Of a stretch of 64,000 nucleotides of DNA, positions 40,282 through 63,585 are shown piece after piece (the stretch's first letter is position 1; the number at the start of each line of letters is the position of its first letter). Under the pieces are notes generated by a model, which saw only the letters and a list, made by a program, of their open reading frames with translations, did no database searches and had not been told where the DNA came from. The position numbers and the translations under genes are program-made. This stretch comes from Streptomyces vietnamensis (GTDB lineage Bacteria > Actinomycetota > Actinomycetes > Streptomycetales > Streptomycetaceae). The stretch is taken from contig NZ_CP010407.1 of assembly GCF_000830005.1 (NCBI RefSeq), forward strand, positions 5,522,001 through 5,586,000, given 5' to 3'.

Positions 40282-40539
40282 TCAGGCGGCGAGGGCCTGC
40301 TTGACCTGGGCCAGGCTCGGGTTGGTCATGACGACCTCGTCGCCGCCGGCCGTCGGGACGACGCGGACGGTCGGGACGGTCTGGTTGCCGCCGTTGGCCT
40401 TCTCGACGAACGCGGCCGAGTCCGGGTCCTGCTCGATGTTGATCTCCGTGTACGCGATGCCCTCGCGGTCCAGCTGGCTCTTCAGCCGGCGGCAGTAGCC
40501 GCACCACGTCGTGCTGTACATCGTCACAGTGCCCTGCAT
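40282..40539 (-). CDS. mrx1: Mycoredoxin / glutaredoxin-like protein
   Basis: An 85-residue thioredoxin-fold protein. The active site is CGYC (residues 13-16, YSTTWCGYCRRLK) and the cis-proline loop is QTVPTVRV. CGYC in an actinobacterial glutaredoxin-like protein is typical of mycoredoxin-1, which reduces protein-mycothiol mixed disulfides. The ATG is preceded by AGAGGAG. It is divergent from uvrD2, the arrangement I recall in mycobacteria (Rv3198A beside uvrD2). Confidence 0.9.
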   Translation of the reverse strand: MQGTVTMYSTTWCGYCRRLKSQLDREGIAYTEINIEQDPDSAAFVEKANGGNQTVPTVRVVPTAGGDEVVMTNPSLAQVKQALAA

Positions 40540-40696
40540 GGCCTGGCGCTCCTCTGGTCGGTATCGGCGTCCGTGTCGGTGCCGAGAGGAAGAACGTACG
40601 CCCCGGCCCGGCCATTCCCGGAATTCGTATGACCGGCGGCACGTGCCTGTGGACAGTCCTCCGCACCGACCCCGCCCGACCTGGCAGCATGGCGGG

Positions 40697-42877
40697 GTGA
40701 CAGCAGCAACGCACTCCACTCTCTTCCCGCAGGTCCCGGAGACGGCCGACGCGGTGCTCGACGGGCTCGACCCCGAGCAGCGCGAGGTCGCCCTTGCCCT
40801 GAACGGACCGGTGTGCGTCCTCGCCGGAGCCGGTACGGGCAAGACGCGGGCCATCACCCACCGCATCGCGTACGGGGTGCGGGCGGGCATCCTGCAGCCC
40901 TCCAGTGTGCTGGCCGTCACGTTCACCAACCGCGCCGCGGGCGAGATGCGCGGCCGGCTGCGGCAGCTCGGCGCGGGCGGTGTCCAGGCCCGTACGTTCC
41001 ACTCCGCGGCCCTCCGCCAGCTCCAGTTCTTCTGGCCGAAAGCAGTCGGTGGCGATCTGCCCCGGCTCCTGGAGCGGAAGATCCAGCTGGTCGCCGACGC
41101 CGCGGCCCGCTGTCGCATCCGGCTCGACCGGAACGAGCTCAGGGACGTGACCAGCGAGATCGAGTGGGCCAAGGTCACCCAGACCGTCCCCGCCGACTAC
41201 CCGGCCGCCGTCGCCAAGTCTGTCAGGGAGGCCCCCCGCGACCCGGCGGAGATCGGCCAGATCTATGCCATGTACGAGCAGCTGAAGCGCGACCGCTCGG
41301 TGATCGACTTCGAGGACGTGCTGCTGCTCACCGTCGGCATCCTCCAAGACCGGTACGACATCGCCGACCAGATCCGCCGCCAGTACCAGCACTTCGTCGT
41401 GGACGAGTACCAGGACGTCTCGCCGCTCCAGCAGCGGCTGCTCGACCTGTGGCTCGGCGACCGCGACAACCTCTGCGTGGTCGGCGACGCCAGCCAGACC
41501 ATCTACTCCTTCACCGGCGCCACCCCCGACCACCTGCTGAACTTCCGCACCCGCCACCCGGCCGCCACGGTCGTCAAGCTGGTCCGCGACTACCGCTCCA
41601 CCCCGCAGGTCGTCCACCTGGCGAACGGGCTGCTCAGCCAGGCCCGCGGCCGGGCCGCCGAGCACCGCCTGGAGCTGATCTCCCAGCGCGACCCGGGCCC
41701 CGAGCCGGTCTACACGGAGTACGCCGACGAGCCCGCCGAGGCCGAGGGCACCGCCCGCCGCATCCGCGACCTCATCGCCGCCGGCGTCCCGGCCGGCGAG
41801 ATCGCCGTCCTCTACCGGATCAACGCCCAGTCCGAGGTCTACGAGCAGGCCCTCGCCGACGCCGGAGTGCCCTACCAGCTCCGCGGCGCCGAGCGCTTCT
41901 TCGAGCGCCAGGAGGTGCGGGAGGCGGGCATCGCCCTGCGCGGCGCCGCCCGCGCCGGGGGCAACGACTCCCTCCTCGACGACGCCGAGGACCTCCCCGC
42001 GCAGGTCAGGGCCGTCCTCTCCACCAAGGGCTGGACCAGCACGCCGCCCGCCGGCTCCGGCGCCGTCCGCGACCGCTGGGAGTCCCTCGCCGCCCTCGTC
42101 CGGCTCGCCGAGGACTTCGCCCGCGCCAAGCCCGGCGCCACCCTCTCCGACCTGGTCGCCGAGCTCGACGAGCGGGCCGCCGCCCAGCACGCCCCGACCG
42201 TCCAGGGCGTCACCCTCGCCTCCCTGCACGCGGCCAAGGGCCTCGAATGGGACGCCGTCTTCCTGGTCGGCCTCACCGAGGGCATGATGCCCATCACCTA
42301 CGCCAAGACCGACGAGCAGGTCGAGGAGGAGCGGCGCCTGCTGTACGTGGGCGTCACCCGGGCCCGCGTCCACCTCACGCTCTCCTGGGCGCTCTCCCGC
42401 TCCCCGGGCGGCCGCGCCAACCGGCGCCCCAGCCGCTTCCTCAAGGGGCTGCGGCCCGGCTCCGGCTCCCTCGGCACCGTCGGCTCCGGCGGCGGTGCCG
42501 GCTTCGTCGAGCGGGGGAGCGGCCCCGTCCGGCGCAAGCCGCGGGGCCCCGTCCTGTGCCGGGTCTGCGGCGCCACCCTCACCGAGGCGGGCGCGATGAA
42601 GCTGATGCGCTGCGAGGACTGCCCCTCGGACATGGACGAGGGCCTGTACGAGCGGCTCAGGGACTGGCGATCGGAACAGGCCAGGGAGCTCGGCCAGCCG
42701 GCCTATTGCGTGTTCACCGACAAGACGCTCATGGCGATCGCCGAGCGCGTCCCCACCACCGACGGGGAGCTCTCCTCGATCGCCGGCGTCGGCGTCCGCA
42801 AGCTCGACCGCTTCGGAGCCGAGGTCCTGGCCATCTGCGCAGGTGAGGAGGGCGGGACGGGCGAGGACGAGGTCTGA
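40697..42877 (+). CDS. uvrD2: ATP-dependent DNA helicase UvrD2
   Basis: A 726-residue superfamily 1A helicase with an HRDC domain. Walker A AGAGTGKT (43-50), motif II VDEYQDVS at about 234, GDASQTIYSFTGAT, ASLHAAKGLEWDAV and GVTRARVHLTLSWA. The C-terminal part has a tetracysteine linker (CRVCGATL and CEDCPSDMDEGLYERLRDW) and the HRDC domain ending with GVGVRKLDRFGAEVL. This order is diagnostic of actinobacterial UvrD2. Start GTG at 40697 with CAGCAT 6 nt upstream, possibly leaderless. Role: DNA unwinding in repair, essential in mycobacteria as recalled. Confidence 0.93.
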   Translation: MTAATHSTLFPQVPETADAVLDGLDPEQREVALALNGPVCVLAGAGTGKTRAITHRIAYGVRAGILQPSSVLAVTFTNRAAGEMRGRLRQLGAGGVQARTFHSAALRQLQFFWPKAVGGDLPRLLERKIQLVADAAARCRIRLDRNELRDVTSEIEWAKVTQTVPADYPAAVAKSVREAPRDPAEIGQIYAMYEQLKRDRSVIDFEDVLLLTVGILQDRYDIADQIRRQYQHFVVDEYQDVSPLQQRLLDLWLGDRDNLCVVGDASQTIYSFTGATPDHLLNFRTRHPAATVVKLVRDYRSTPQVVHLANGLLSQARGRAAEHRLELISQRDPGPEPVYTEYADEPAEAEGTARRIRDLIAAGVPAGEIAVLYRINAQSEVYEQALADAGVPYQLRGAERFFERQEVREAGIALRGAARAGGNDSLLDDAEDLPAQVRAVLSTKGWTSTPPAGSGAVRDRWESLAALVRLAEDFARAKPGATLSDLVAELDERAAAQHAPTVQGVTLASLHAAKGLEWDAVFLVGLTEGMMPITYAKTDEQVEEERRLLYVGVTRARVHLTLSWALSRSPGGRANRRPSRFLKGLRPGSGSLGTVGSGGGAGFVERGSGPVRRKPRGPVLCRVCGATLTEAGAMKLMRCEDCPSDMDEGLYERLRDWRSEQARELGQPAYCVFTDKTLMAIAERVPTTDGELSSIAGVGVRKLDRFGAEVLAICAGEEGGTGEDEV

Positions 42878-42889
42878 GGAAAACTCGTC

Positions 42890-42930
42890 GGAAAAATAGT
42901 TTGCGCCCGCCCCGTCAAGCCCCATAGGTT
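42890..42930 (+). promoter_or_regulatory. Candidate wblC (WhiB7-type) promoter
   Basis: An AT-rich block (GGAAAAATAGT, 42890-42900) abuts a -35-like TTGCGC (42901-42906). After 18 bp comes a -10-like TAGGTT (42925-42930). An AT-rich stretch directly upstream of -35 is the hallmark of promoters activated by WhiB7/WblC with the vegetative sigma factor, so autoregulation is likely. Confidence 0.6.
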
Positions 42931-43048
42931 CTTAACCACGGAAACAGCGCTTCTTCGAAGCCCTGTCTTCGTGCTGTACTTGTCCAATTACACATGAGGG
43001 TCCGGCTCGCACCCGAGCCCTCCGAGACGCCGAGAGGAGGCGATTCCA

Positions 43049-43405
43049 GTGATCAGCACCATCATTCAGACCAGCTCCGCCAGCACCGTCCGCTTCGTCG
43101 GCATGGCCAAAATGACCGATCGCTCGGTCGTCTCCGCCTGCTCGCTCGGCCTCTCCGCCTCGGCTCTCATTGGCACCGGTCTGCCCGTCGCCGGCCTGCC
43201 CGTCACCGGTCTTTCCGGTCTCGGTGCGGCCGCCGTGGCTCCGCGCAATGAGCGACCGACCAAGGCACTGGAAGCAGGAGCAGCAGGCAAGGCCACGGCC
43301 TATGGCTTTGCGGCGACCGGTGCCGGAACCCAGCAGCAGACGACGACGCACCACCACACGATGTGGGCCTTCCGTGGGCTCGAACCCTGGAGTGATCCAG
43401 TCTGA
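43049..43405 (+). CDS. 118-residue upstream ORF in the wblC leader
   Basis: An ORF beginning with GTG (VISTIIQTSSASTVRF) and a strong AGAGGAGG ribosome-binding site. It ends EPWSDPV at 43405, inside a run of hairpins just before a terminator. Its composition is low-complexity in the middle (GLPVAGLPVTGLSGLG) and no domain is recognisable. It lies between the candidate wblC promoter and wblC, so its translation probably senses ribosome-targeting antibiotics as the upstream ORFs of whiB7/wblC genes do. A protein product need not be functional. Confidence 0.55.
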   Translation: MISTIIQTSSASTVRFVGMAKMTDRSVVSACSLGLSASALIGTGLPVAGLPVTGLSGLGAAAVAPRNERPTKALEAGAAGKATAYGFAATGAGTQQQTTTHHHTMWAFRGLEPWSDPV

Positions 43406-43486
43406 TCCATGATCAGACCGGCGCCTTCAGGGCCGCGGAACCCCACCCGGGATCCGCGGCCCTTCTGTTTGTCCCCGAACGGGGAC
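43387..43486 (+). promoter_or_regulatory. Attenuator hairpins and terminator in the wblC leader
   Basis: Tandem stem-loops: CTGGA/TCCAG (43387-43400), TCTGATC/GATCAGA (43401-43417), then the 10-bp stem GGGCCGCGGA/TCCGCGGCCC (43430-43462) followed by TTCTGTTTG, a typical intrinsic terminator, and GTCCCC/GGGGAC (43471-43486). The upstream ORF stops inside the second hairpin. The arrangement fits ribosome-controlled transcription attenuation. Confidence 0.7.
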
Positions 43487-43568
43487 GACGGCACGAAGGA
43501 GCCTCGGGAAGCAACAACCCGGTACCAGCCGAAACCCCGGCCAACAGGCCGGAACGACCAGACGAGGA

Positions 43569-43946
43569 ATGACCACCGTGCAACTCGAAGCGCACGCCCC
43601 GTCCGTACCGCCTTCCGAATCGAACTCCCTGCCCGGCCTCACGGAGGACCCCGCTTTGACCCCCCTCACCGCGCTCACCGCGCTCGACGACGCCATCGAG
43701 AACCTCGGCGTACCCGTACCCTGTCGCGCCTACGACCCCGAGGTCTTCTTCGCGGAGTCCCCGGCCGACGTCGAGTACGCGAAGTCCCTCTGCCAGACCT
43801 GCCCGCTCGTGGCGGCCTGCCTGGCGGGCGCCAAGGAGCGCCGCGAGCCCTGGGGCGTCTGGGGTGGCGAGCTCTTCGTCCAGGGCGTGGTCGTCGCCCG
43901 CAAGCGGCCCCGTGGCCGTCCGCGCAAGAACCCGGTCGCGGCATGA
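43569..43946 (+). CDS. wblC: WhiB-family regulator WblC (WhiB7)
   Basis: A 125-residue iron-sulfur transcription factor that switches on intrinsic antibiotic-resistance genes with the main sigma factor. Four cluster cysteines are in PCRAYDPEVFF, SLCQTCPLVAAC. The GVWGGE turn (EPWGVWGGE) binds sigma region 4, and the AT-hook RGRPRKN near the C-terminus contacts AT-rich DNA. These three features together identify WhiB7/WblC (SCO5190 in S. coelicolor, recalled). It is controlled by the leader described above. ATGA overlap with the next ORF. Confidence 0.95.
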   Translation: MTTVQLEAHAPSVPPSESNSLPGLTEDPALTPLTALTALDDAIENLGVPVPCRAYDPEVFFAESPADVEYAKSLCQTCPLVAACLAGAKERREPWGVWGGELFVQGVVVARKRPRGRPRKNPVAA

Positions 43947-44266
43947 GCGCCACCGGAACCATCGACCGCCCCCTCACGCACGATCCCCAGAAGCAGGCCC
44001 CGATGACCTCTTCCACCAGCGAGCCCGCCGGCTCCGCGACCCCAGTCTTCTCCCCCGCCGCCGCGCACACCGCGCGTCAGAACAGGACCCGTGAAATGCA
44101 ACTCGCCCCAGAAGCCCTGGCCCGTGCCCATATGCATGAGCGACAGCGTGAGGCCGAGGCGGAACGCCAGGCCGTGCGCCTGGTCGCCGCCCGGCGCATG
44201 CAGCGCCGCGCCGAGCGCGTCTCGCTGCGCGCCCGCCGCGCGCTCGCCATGGCCGTCATGCACTGA
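43943..44266 (+). CDS. Hypothetical basic helical protein downstream of wblC
   Basis: A 107-residue ORF whose ATG overlaps the wblC stop codon (ATGA). The N-terminal half is disordered. The C-terminal half is a strongly basic amphipathic helix (AHMHERQREAEAERQAVRLV, then ARRMQRRAERVSLRARRALA). A shorter version starting at MQLAPE (44096) is possible. Because it is translationally coupled to wblC it may be co-induced by antibiotics; function unknown. Confidence 0.6.
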   Translation: MSATGTIDRPLTHDPQKQAPMTSSTSEPAGSATPVFSPAAAHTARQNRTREMQLAPEALARAHMHERQREAEAERQAVRLVAARRMQRRAERVSLRARRALAMAVMH

Positions 44267-61202: not shown

Positions 61203-61276
61203 CGCGGGGTGGAGCAGCTCGGTAGCTCGCTGGGCTCATAACCCAGAGGTCGCAGGTTCAAATCCTGTCCCCGCTA
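61203..61276 (+). tRNA. tRNA-fMet(CAT), copy 1
   Basis: A 74-nt initiator tRNA. The anticodon CAT sits in a loop flanked by GGG/CCC pairs (CTGGGCTCATAACCCAG), the initiator hallmark. The acceptor stem is CGCGGGG with CCCCGC, with C1 unpaired against T72. The T loop is GGTTCAAATCC. CCA is not encoded. A terminator follows immediately. Confidence 0.97.
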
Positions 61277-63511: not shown

Positions 63512-63585
63512 CGCGGGGTGGAGCAGCTCGGTAGCTCGCTGGGCTCATAACCCAGAGGTCGCAGGTTCAAATCCTGTCCCCGCTA
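63512..63585 (+). tRNA. tRNA-fMet(CAT), copy 2
   Basis: Identical in all 74 positions to the copy at 61203, and preceded by the same TTCACCGA and followed by the same CTACTCAG-type flank. Same initiator features. CCA not encoded. A terminator with the same design follows. Confidence 0.97.

Follow-up and report, generated by a model that had tools for sequence, protein, structure and literature searches.

Introduction

In actinomycetes, intrinsic resistance to drugs that target the ribosome is under the control of wblC/whiB7. The closest described system to the leader studied here is the uORF-mediated attenuation of this gene (named wblC in Streptomyces), reported by Lee, Lee and Roe (2022, Mol Microbiol 117:179) and represented here by passages of four papers, PMC11550727, PMC12421871, PMC13393426 and PMC9618640; as these passages relate it, the attenuation principle is already known for wblC itself. 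Judged by the same passages, the published attenuator resembles our locus in its gene, its promoter type, its uORF, its Rho-independent terminator and its antiterminator logic, and no principle differs between the two. PMC12121999 remarks that no test had yet been made of ribosome stalling inside the whiB7 uORF.

Further systems, likewise known to us from excerpts, share parts of this logic. The ARE-ABCF leaders of Streptomyces coelicolor (are5sc, tiaA; PMC12421871) also combine a uORF with a terminator and an antiterminator that answer ribosome-targeting drugs, but their uORFs have 3–9 codons and stall the ribosome at the start codon, whereas about 107 codons precede the decision in the wblC leader. 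In Escherichia coli, the single toiL uORF (PMC12121999) similarly answers several classes of ribosome-targeting drugs; however, the drug determines whether ribosomes stall on its start codon or farther along, and the genes under its control are topAI-yjhQ rather than a resistance regulator. Amino-acid attenuators such as that of ilvB (PMC13236596, PMC11109978) resemble the wblC leader in that terminator and antiterminator exclude each other and the antiterminator is hidden by a ribosome that has reached the stop codon, but their regulatory codons are specific to a single set of amino acids, while the wblC uORF is long and mixed.

Here, we analyze the wblC leader within a window of 64,000 nt from Streptomyces vietnamensis (contig NZ_CP010407.1, positions 5,522,001 to 5,586,000), to whose plus strand all feature coordinates below refer. 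We conclude, with a probability of roughly 90%, that this leader belongs to the whiB7/wblC type of transcription attenuator, in which the ribosome exerts control. The evidence consists of the parts themselves, their conservation, compensatory changes in a hairpin around the uORF stop codon, and antiterminator strands that vary together across the class; the comparison gives a position-by-position map of the wblC switch.

Layout of the wblC leader

The initial annotation of this stretch had placed a promoter and a leader of about 630 nt, with a uORF, hairpins and a terminator, 5' of wblC, and both the sequence and the comparison with other genomes confirm that observation as correct. The locus has the gene downstream, a promoter, a translated-looking uORF ending at the terminator, a Rho-independent terminator and an antiterminator exclusive with it. 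The gene itself (43569–43946; WhiB family, PF02467, E 4.8e-14) starts at ATG 43569 or at GTG 43581, the latter being better spaced from GAGG, and its translation contains GVWGGELF and the AT-hook RGRPRK. A wblC homologue is present in all 101 genomes of our Streptomyces genus sample.

The WblC-type promoter (42890–42930) consists, as read directly from the sequence, of an AT block AAAAAT (42892–42897), 3 nt, a -35 element TTGCGC (42901–42906), 18 nt and a -10 element TAGGTT (42925–42930). According to a legend in PMC7157823, GAAAWY is placed 3 nt before the -35 element in WblC-type promoters, and in AAAAAT-AGT-TTGCGC five of six bases agree with this block. The arrangement recurs in 97 of the 101 genus leaders by a sequence pattern and in 100 by a looser one, and the remaining leader, L078, shows it by eye, which bears out the earlier call of a WhiB7-type promoter. 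A simple sigma-70 scan of the window called no promoter at the wblC leader; the -35 and -10 hexamers each share 3 of 6 bases with the sigma-70 consensus.

Just 3' of the promoter lies a conserved TG-TGTACTT block (42969–42981), whose GTG opens an 8-codon ORF in the window. Its pattern was found in 70 of 104 Streptomyces leaders, with an ORF of at most 20 codons in 9 and in frame into the uORF in 21.

A long and conserved uORF

The uORF (43049–43405) spans 118 codons from a GTG start at 43049 to a TGA stop at 43403–43405. Its Shine-Dalgarno region (43028–43042) carries GAGAGGAGG (43032–43040) with GGAGG at 43036–43040, and the strong ribosome-binding site claimed for it at the outset is corroborated by the comparison: GGAGG lies 8–10 nt 5' of the start in all 101 uORFs of the genus sample (GTG start in 90, ATG in 11), and the Shine-Dalgarno block is near-invariant among leaders. 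A small hairpin (CGCC/GGCG) possibly forms in this region, although with 0 compensatory and 3 breaking events it is without covariation support.

Among 104 Streptomyces leaders (all 101 of the genus sample and three further ones), the uORF frame is open in every single one, compared to 0 and 3 for the other two forward frames, and the uORFs have 29 different lengths, each a multiple of three. In the reverse direction, one frame is likewise free of stops in 102 of the 104, which is the usual by-product of GC-rich codon use. The stop codon is fixed as well: TGA ends all 156 collected uORFs (104 from Streptomyces, 49 from other genera and 3 from other families), and UGA is invariant in the 55 leaders that were aligned.

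The initial annotation had remarked that 118 codons exceed the usual length of such leaders. This holds against short leaders elsewhere but not for the element itself, in which a long uORF is the rule and 118 codons are not exceptional: lengths are 88–124 codons in the 101 Streptomyces leaders and 98–181 in 49 leaders from other genera of Streptomycetaceae, and 40 of 41 leaders from other families have a uORF of 59–175 codons that is preceded by a Shine-Dalgarno sequence (by a loose rule) and ends by the hairpin. The 49 leaders are those positive by the uORF rule among 51 sampled genomes of other genera of the family; L159 and L171 were dropped by the terminator pattern, yet the ends of their uORFs are visible.

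The stop-codon hairpin and the terminator

As had been proposed, the uORF ends inside overlapping hairpins that are followed by a terminator. A GNRA-loop hairpin, CUGGA-GUGA-UCCAG (43387–43400), is kept in most Streptomyces leaders and broken in many leaders of other genera. Next to it, the stop-codon hairpin GUCUGAUC-CAU-GAUCAGAC (43400–43418; arms 43400–43407 and 43411–43418) holds the UGA in its 5' strand. Ten bases past this hairpin begins the predicted GC-rich intrinsic terminator AGGGCCGCGGAACCC / GGGATCCGCGGCCCT (43429–43470), with its stem at 43429–43443/43449–43463, an imperfect U-tract TTCTGTTT (43463–43470) and a folding energy of -29.2 kcal/mol for 43430–43463. A mechanical terminator scan of the window missed the 43429–43463 hairpin; the one site it reported is on the minus strand.

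The stop-codon hairpin varies in a compensatory manner. On the Streptomyces tree, we counted 9 compensatory events, compared to 0–1 with slid partners, and 15 breaking ones; on a wblC-based tree of 142 leaders, these numbers were 13, 0–1 and 31. For the stop hairpin and the terminator together, both sides had changed in 39 cells of the alignment of 55 leaders, against 3.6 in shuffles and 1–7 with slid partners, and 37 of these 39 cells fall in the stop hairpin. In the terminator, 10 of 14 pairs never vary over the 55 sequences. Both structures are more than chance, the terminator by its near-invariance and the stop hairpin by its compensatory changes. When the 104 Streptomyces leaders were tested for covariation against a strict tree-based null modelled on R-scape, no pair reached E <= 0.5; deep splits between clades dominated the output. 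A search of Rfam at the gathering score assigned no family to the wblC leader and called only two tRNAs in the window.

A predicted antiterminator and the position of the ribosome

Codons 108–115 of the uORF are predicted to pair with the 5' arm of the terminator, and this pairing, capped by the stop-codon hairpin as its apical part, is supported as an antiterminator by the comparisons below. Its 5' strands (43370–43392) are UUCCGUGG (43370–43377) and CCCUGGAG (43385–43392), the latter overlapping the GNRA hairpin; its 3' strand CUUCAGGGCCGCGGAA (43425–43440) overlaps the 5' arm of the terminator, and the pairing includes CCCUGGAG/CUUCAGGG. The two structures have the strand 43429–43440 in common and are mutually exclusive. 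Over the 55 aligned leaders, pairing is seen in 93.8% of cells for the helix of 43371–43377 and in 96.3% for that of 43385–43392, both with partners in 43425–43439; for the outermost pair, 43370/43440, the share is 69.1%.

Within Streptomyces, the antiterminator strands are almost invariant, with 0–1 compensatory events; the weak covariation within the family is explained by strands that hardly vary there, and across the 55 leaders nearly all double changes in this analysis lie in the stop hairpin. Across families, the strands do vary jointly, as in CCUGGAG/CUCCAGG, CCUCGAG/CUCGAGG, CUUGGAG/CUCCAAG and CCUCGGGG/CCCCGAGG. Among 42 leaders from other families (an unthinned set that includes related leaders), the longest exact antiterminator match averaged 5.52 nt with the leader's own strand and 4.30 nt with that of another leader, the highest of 200 repeats with swapped strands being 4.71 nt. 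In 15 of the 42, the best match has only 3–4 nt; for L188 this local-match test took a wrong anchor site, and that leader counts against the antiterminator. A stricter version with a fixed 7-nt register gave 12 perfect matches among 41 leaders versus 5% with swapped strands; we judged this register too strict at the level of the class and prefer the local-match version. The set of other-family leaders numbers 41 or 42 and leaves aside L143, L144, L187, L150 (a duplicate, in the place of L318) and weaker matches; L323 takes part only in the fixed-register and local-match tests, and its core was not found in the former.

We also modelled the effect of the ribosome by blocking the RNA for 24 placements of the ribosomal P site. 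A transcript that ends at 43448, and so still lacks the 3' arm of the terminator, is predicted to fold into an extended antiterminator with the stop hairpin as its cap (-43.7 kcal/mol for 43365–43448). With the ribosome at tested codons 1–102, both antiterminator helices would form with a probability of 0.90 or more; at codons 103–107 the inner helix would still form, and from codon 108 it would be blocked. In the equilibrium of the full RNA, the terminator prevails at all ribosome positions tested (probability 0.91–1.00), and the switch must therefore be kinetic, decided during transcription. When the last codons were re-drawn synonymously, sequestration of the 5' arm was 1.00 in Streptomyces versus 0.90 re-drawn (energy z -0.31), 0.92 versus 0.80 in other genera (z -1.69) and 0.64 versus 0.66 in three leaders from other families (z -2.13). 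By itself, the folding result is thus hardly specific in Streptomyces, more specific in other genera and, as regards sequestration, not specific in the three leaders from other families.

The suggestion that stalled ribosomes prevent terminator formation is supported by the published whiB7/wblC mechanism together with the pairing of the last codons with the terminator 5' arm; ribosome switching and drug induction at this locus are inferred from published work on its relatives. RNA polymerase would start at the WblC-activated promoter, with the uORF translated behind it. A ribosome that reaches the UGA would cover the last codons and melt the stop-codon hairpin and the antiterminator strands, after which the terminator (43429–43463) could form and transcription would stop. 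If translation were instead held up before about codon 108, whether by slowing, blockage or starvation, the stop hairpin would join UUCCGUGG and CCCUGGAG with CUUCAGGGCCGCGGAA; the 5' arm of the terminator would already be occupied when its 3' arm emerges, and the polymerase would read into wblC, whose product would then activate its own promoter. The notion of sensor codons inside the uORF stands to the extent that a stall before about codon 108 would free the antiterminator; the model needs no particular codon, however, which would suit a sensor of many drugs.

Peptide conservation and alternative explanations

Conservation of the uORF end, which had been named as a check, is indeed found: the last residues, MWAFRG(L/P)EPWSDP, are kept in the genus sample, and pN/pS is lowest, at 0.27, in the last 14 codons (pN/pS and divergence values were obtained from 600 random pairs among leaders L001–L077). 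Such conservation would also be expected if the uORF product stalled its own ribosome, in the presence of drugs, by way of a specific nascent peptide, for which erm- or SecM-type leaders are the model. Two interior blocks, codons 47–65 and 84–93, speak for this as well, their pN/pS of 0.57 and 0.49 being like the 0.52 of wblC (the wblC values come from an ungapped alignment of its last 75 codons and may be inflated). However, the conserved end is exactly the RNA of the antiterminator and the stop hairpin, so that conserved residues coincide with RNA pairings, and a stall there would block the antiterminator, as judged by folding. In addition, two other genera (g2 and g5, 7 leaders) have lost the WAFRG residues but kept CCUGGAG, and the interior pN/pS is mixed: it reaches at least 0.99 in five of the nine blocks and is 0.49–0.85 in the other four. 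We regard peptide-specific arrest as very unlikely.

The uORF could, alternatively, encode a small protein with a function of its own, whose transcript the terminator merely ends. Its start and frame are conserved, pN/pS is below 1 in 5 of the 9 interior blocks (though 0.99 in one of them), and its product has 1419 homologues at E <= 0.001 among 1554 candidates in public protein sets. Yet the product has no domain in Pfam or NCBIfam, the uORF length varies from 88 to 181 codons within the family, and wobble bases are constrained beyond the needs of a peptide. The names among the 120 listed homologues are hypothetical or uncharacterized protein. Among the best 80 of 115 named records, 79 are titled Streptomyces; in 79, wblC and the terminator follow downstream, which argues against an independent protein, and the antiterminator strand pattern was found in 77 and the promoter pattern in 74. 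The one other record, L285, whose locus is truncated by its contig, shows no wblC, terminator, antiterminator strand or promoter. A function as a free-standing protein is, in our judgment, scarcely credible. As a side observation, a Streptomyces-type uORF is also present in L231, whose title, Microtetraspora glauca NRRL B-3735, seems to be out of date or mistaken.

A further alternative is that partial termination, whether Rho-dependent or constitutive, takes place independently of uORF translation and leaves regulation to WblC autoactivation alone. This would agree with the conserved WblC-type promoter and with a terminator state that is more stable than the antiterminator in folding, but it is hardly to be believed in view of the compensatory changes in the stop hairpin, the antiterminator strands that match across families and the stop codon fixed inside the hairpin.

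Nucleotide-level constraint inside the uORF

While a ribosome-controlled attenuator needs its coding region only to be translated, many wobble bases of the uORF are kept, which raises the question of why. Rare codons (used for less than 12% of their amino acid) make up 24.6% of the 101 uORFs versus 5.5% of 23 long ORFs of the window, a gap somewhat widened by choosing the latter for a GC3 above 0.88, which lowers their rare-codon share. Sixteen uORF positions hold a rare codon in at least 85% of the rows with the common residue, for instance AAA 21, GAT 24, CGA 69 (100 of 100), GCA 73 and TAT 85, and 12 of the sixteen fall in codons 21–93, away from the switch. The residue differs at these positions in 214 cases. 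Of these, 98 retain the wobble base (codon 85, 9 of 10; codon 24, 8 of 10; codon 87, 8 of 24; codon 75, 12 of 40), and 122 still have a rare codon. The block GAGCGACCG (43250–43258), which encodes Glu68-Arg69-Pro70 with the rare CGA, occurs in 97 of 104 uORFs from Streptomyces, 41 of 49 from other genera and 0 of 3 from other families, and is in frame in all 138.

Synonymous divergence points in the same direction. It is 0.07–0.20 in four conserved interior blocks (pN/pS 0.49–1.42) and 0.13 in the last 14 codons, compared to 0.29–0.49 in three variable blocks (pN/pS 0.57–1.26) and 0.325 in wblC; in codons 2–20 and 94–104, it is 0.14 and 0.10 while residues change freely (pN/pS 2.17 and 2.42). 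By their fixed rare codons and kept wobble bases, parts of the uORF interior therefore look selected at the nucleotide level. In the passages of the wblC/whiB7 attenuation literature that we consulted, the original attenuation paper being represented by papers citing it, we found no account of the stop-codon hairpin or of constraint on uORF wobble bases.

Within the uORF, one candidate internal helix, GGCACTGG (43264–43271) with CCGGTGCC (43317–43324), has moderate support from the comparison: it shows 4 compensatory events versus 0–2 with slid partners, and 11 breaking ones, and the own energy is -23.48 versus -22.05 with swapped strands in the 129 of 156 uORFs that have both motifs, a difference inflated by relatedness. 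In the 138 uORFs with GAGCGACCG, a site of this helix is A-T or G-C in 114, A/C in 11, G/T in 2 and uncallable in 11, by a site rule that is ambiguous. Other candidate pairings found no support. A long-range helix at KMTDRSVV/ERPT (43124–43132 with 43251–43259), suggested by a consensus fold, was rejected: it had 0 compensatory and 36 breaking events and a duplex energy of -15.66 versus -15.48 swapped (140 sequences). Likewise unsupported were the pairings GGUGCCGG/CCGGCGCC (1 compensatory, 19 breaking) and GGCACCGG/CCGGUGCC (1 and 28), a pairing of the stop hairpin with the region of the start codon (0 and 20) and, more locally, a hairpin at 43176–43188 (0 and 17). For the remaining conserved blocks, no structure could be supported.

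We tentatively propose, as a possibility that we hold to be rather doubtful, that the coding stretch of the uORF is no filler but acts, as RNA, in a conserved regulatory role of its own. Fixed A/T-ending rare codons, the conserved blocks AAANTGAC, GAGCGACCG and GGTGCCGG and at least one internal helix would set the pace or folding of translation; delays in elongation anywhere along about 107 codons would then be combined into a single output, with an alanine-rich stretch lying directly ahead of the decision point. Alanine accounts for 31% of uORF codons -45 to -13 versus 17% overall; an alanine link of whiB7 is mentioned in PMC13236596, and the stretch may be related to it.

Distribution of the element and neighboring features

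To map the element more widely, we derived a covariance model from the 55 aligned leaders (24 from Streptomyces, 27 from other genera and 4 from other families), which match it by construction; the model covers the final codons of the uORF, the stop hairpin and the terminator. It matches 61 of 61 Streptomycetaceae genomes, each time 42–145 nt before the wblC match and on the same strand, and 153 of 246 Actinomycetes genomes at E <= 0.01. Weak second matches to the model are mostly the palindromic terminator read on the other strand. Outside the family, among genomes common to the model search and the wblC search, a wblC match was on the list for 64 of the 65 best matches (E <= 1.3e-4); in each of these 64 the element precedes the matched wblC stretch on the same strand, at a distance of -15 to 290 nt. 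The element is thus placed upstream of wblC in every checked leader with a wblC match, over much of the class. About a third of the 95 outside-family genomes listed with wblC are without a position-checked element match; ten wblC-searched genomes outside the family have weaker model matches (E 1.6e-4 to 0.01), which stand outside the position comparison. One element match, G254:C1:1042947-1043049 (E 8.8e-6), comes from a genome in which the wblC search gave nothing at E <= 1e-15.

In the window, an ORF of 106 codons (43946–44266) overlaps the wblC stop as ATGA and has no Pfam or NCBIfam match at E <= 0.001. Immediately upstream of the wblC leader lies a gene for a UvrD/PcrA-like helicase with a C-terminal HRDC domain (40511–42877), and the two tRNA genes, at 61203–61276 and 63512–63585, score 61.7 bits each and are about 2.3 kb apart.
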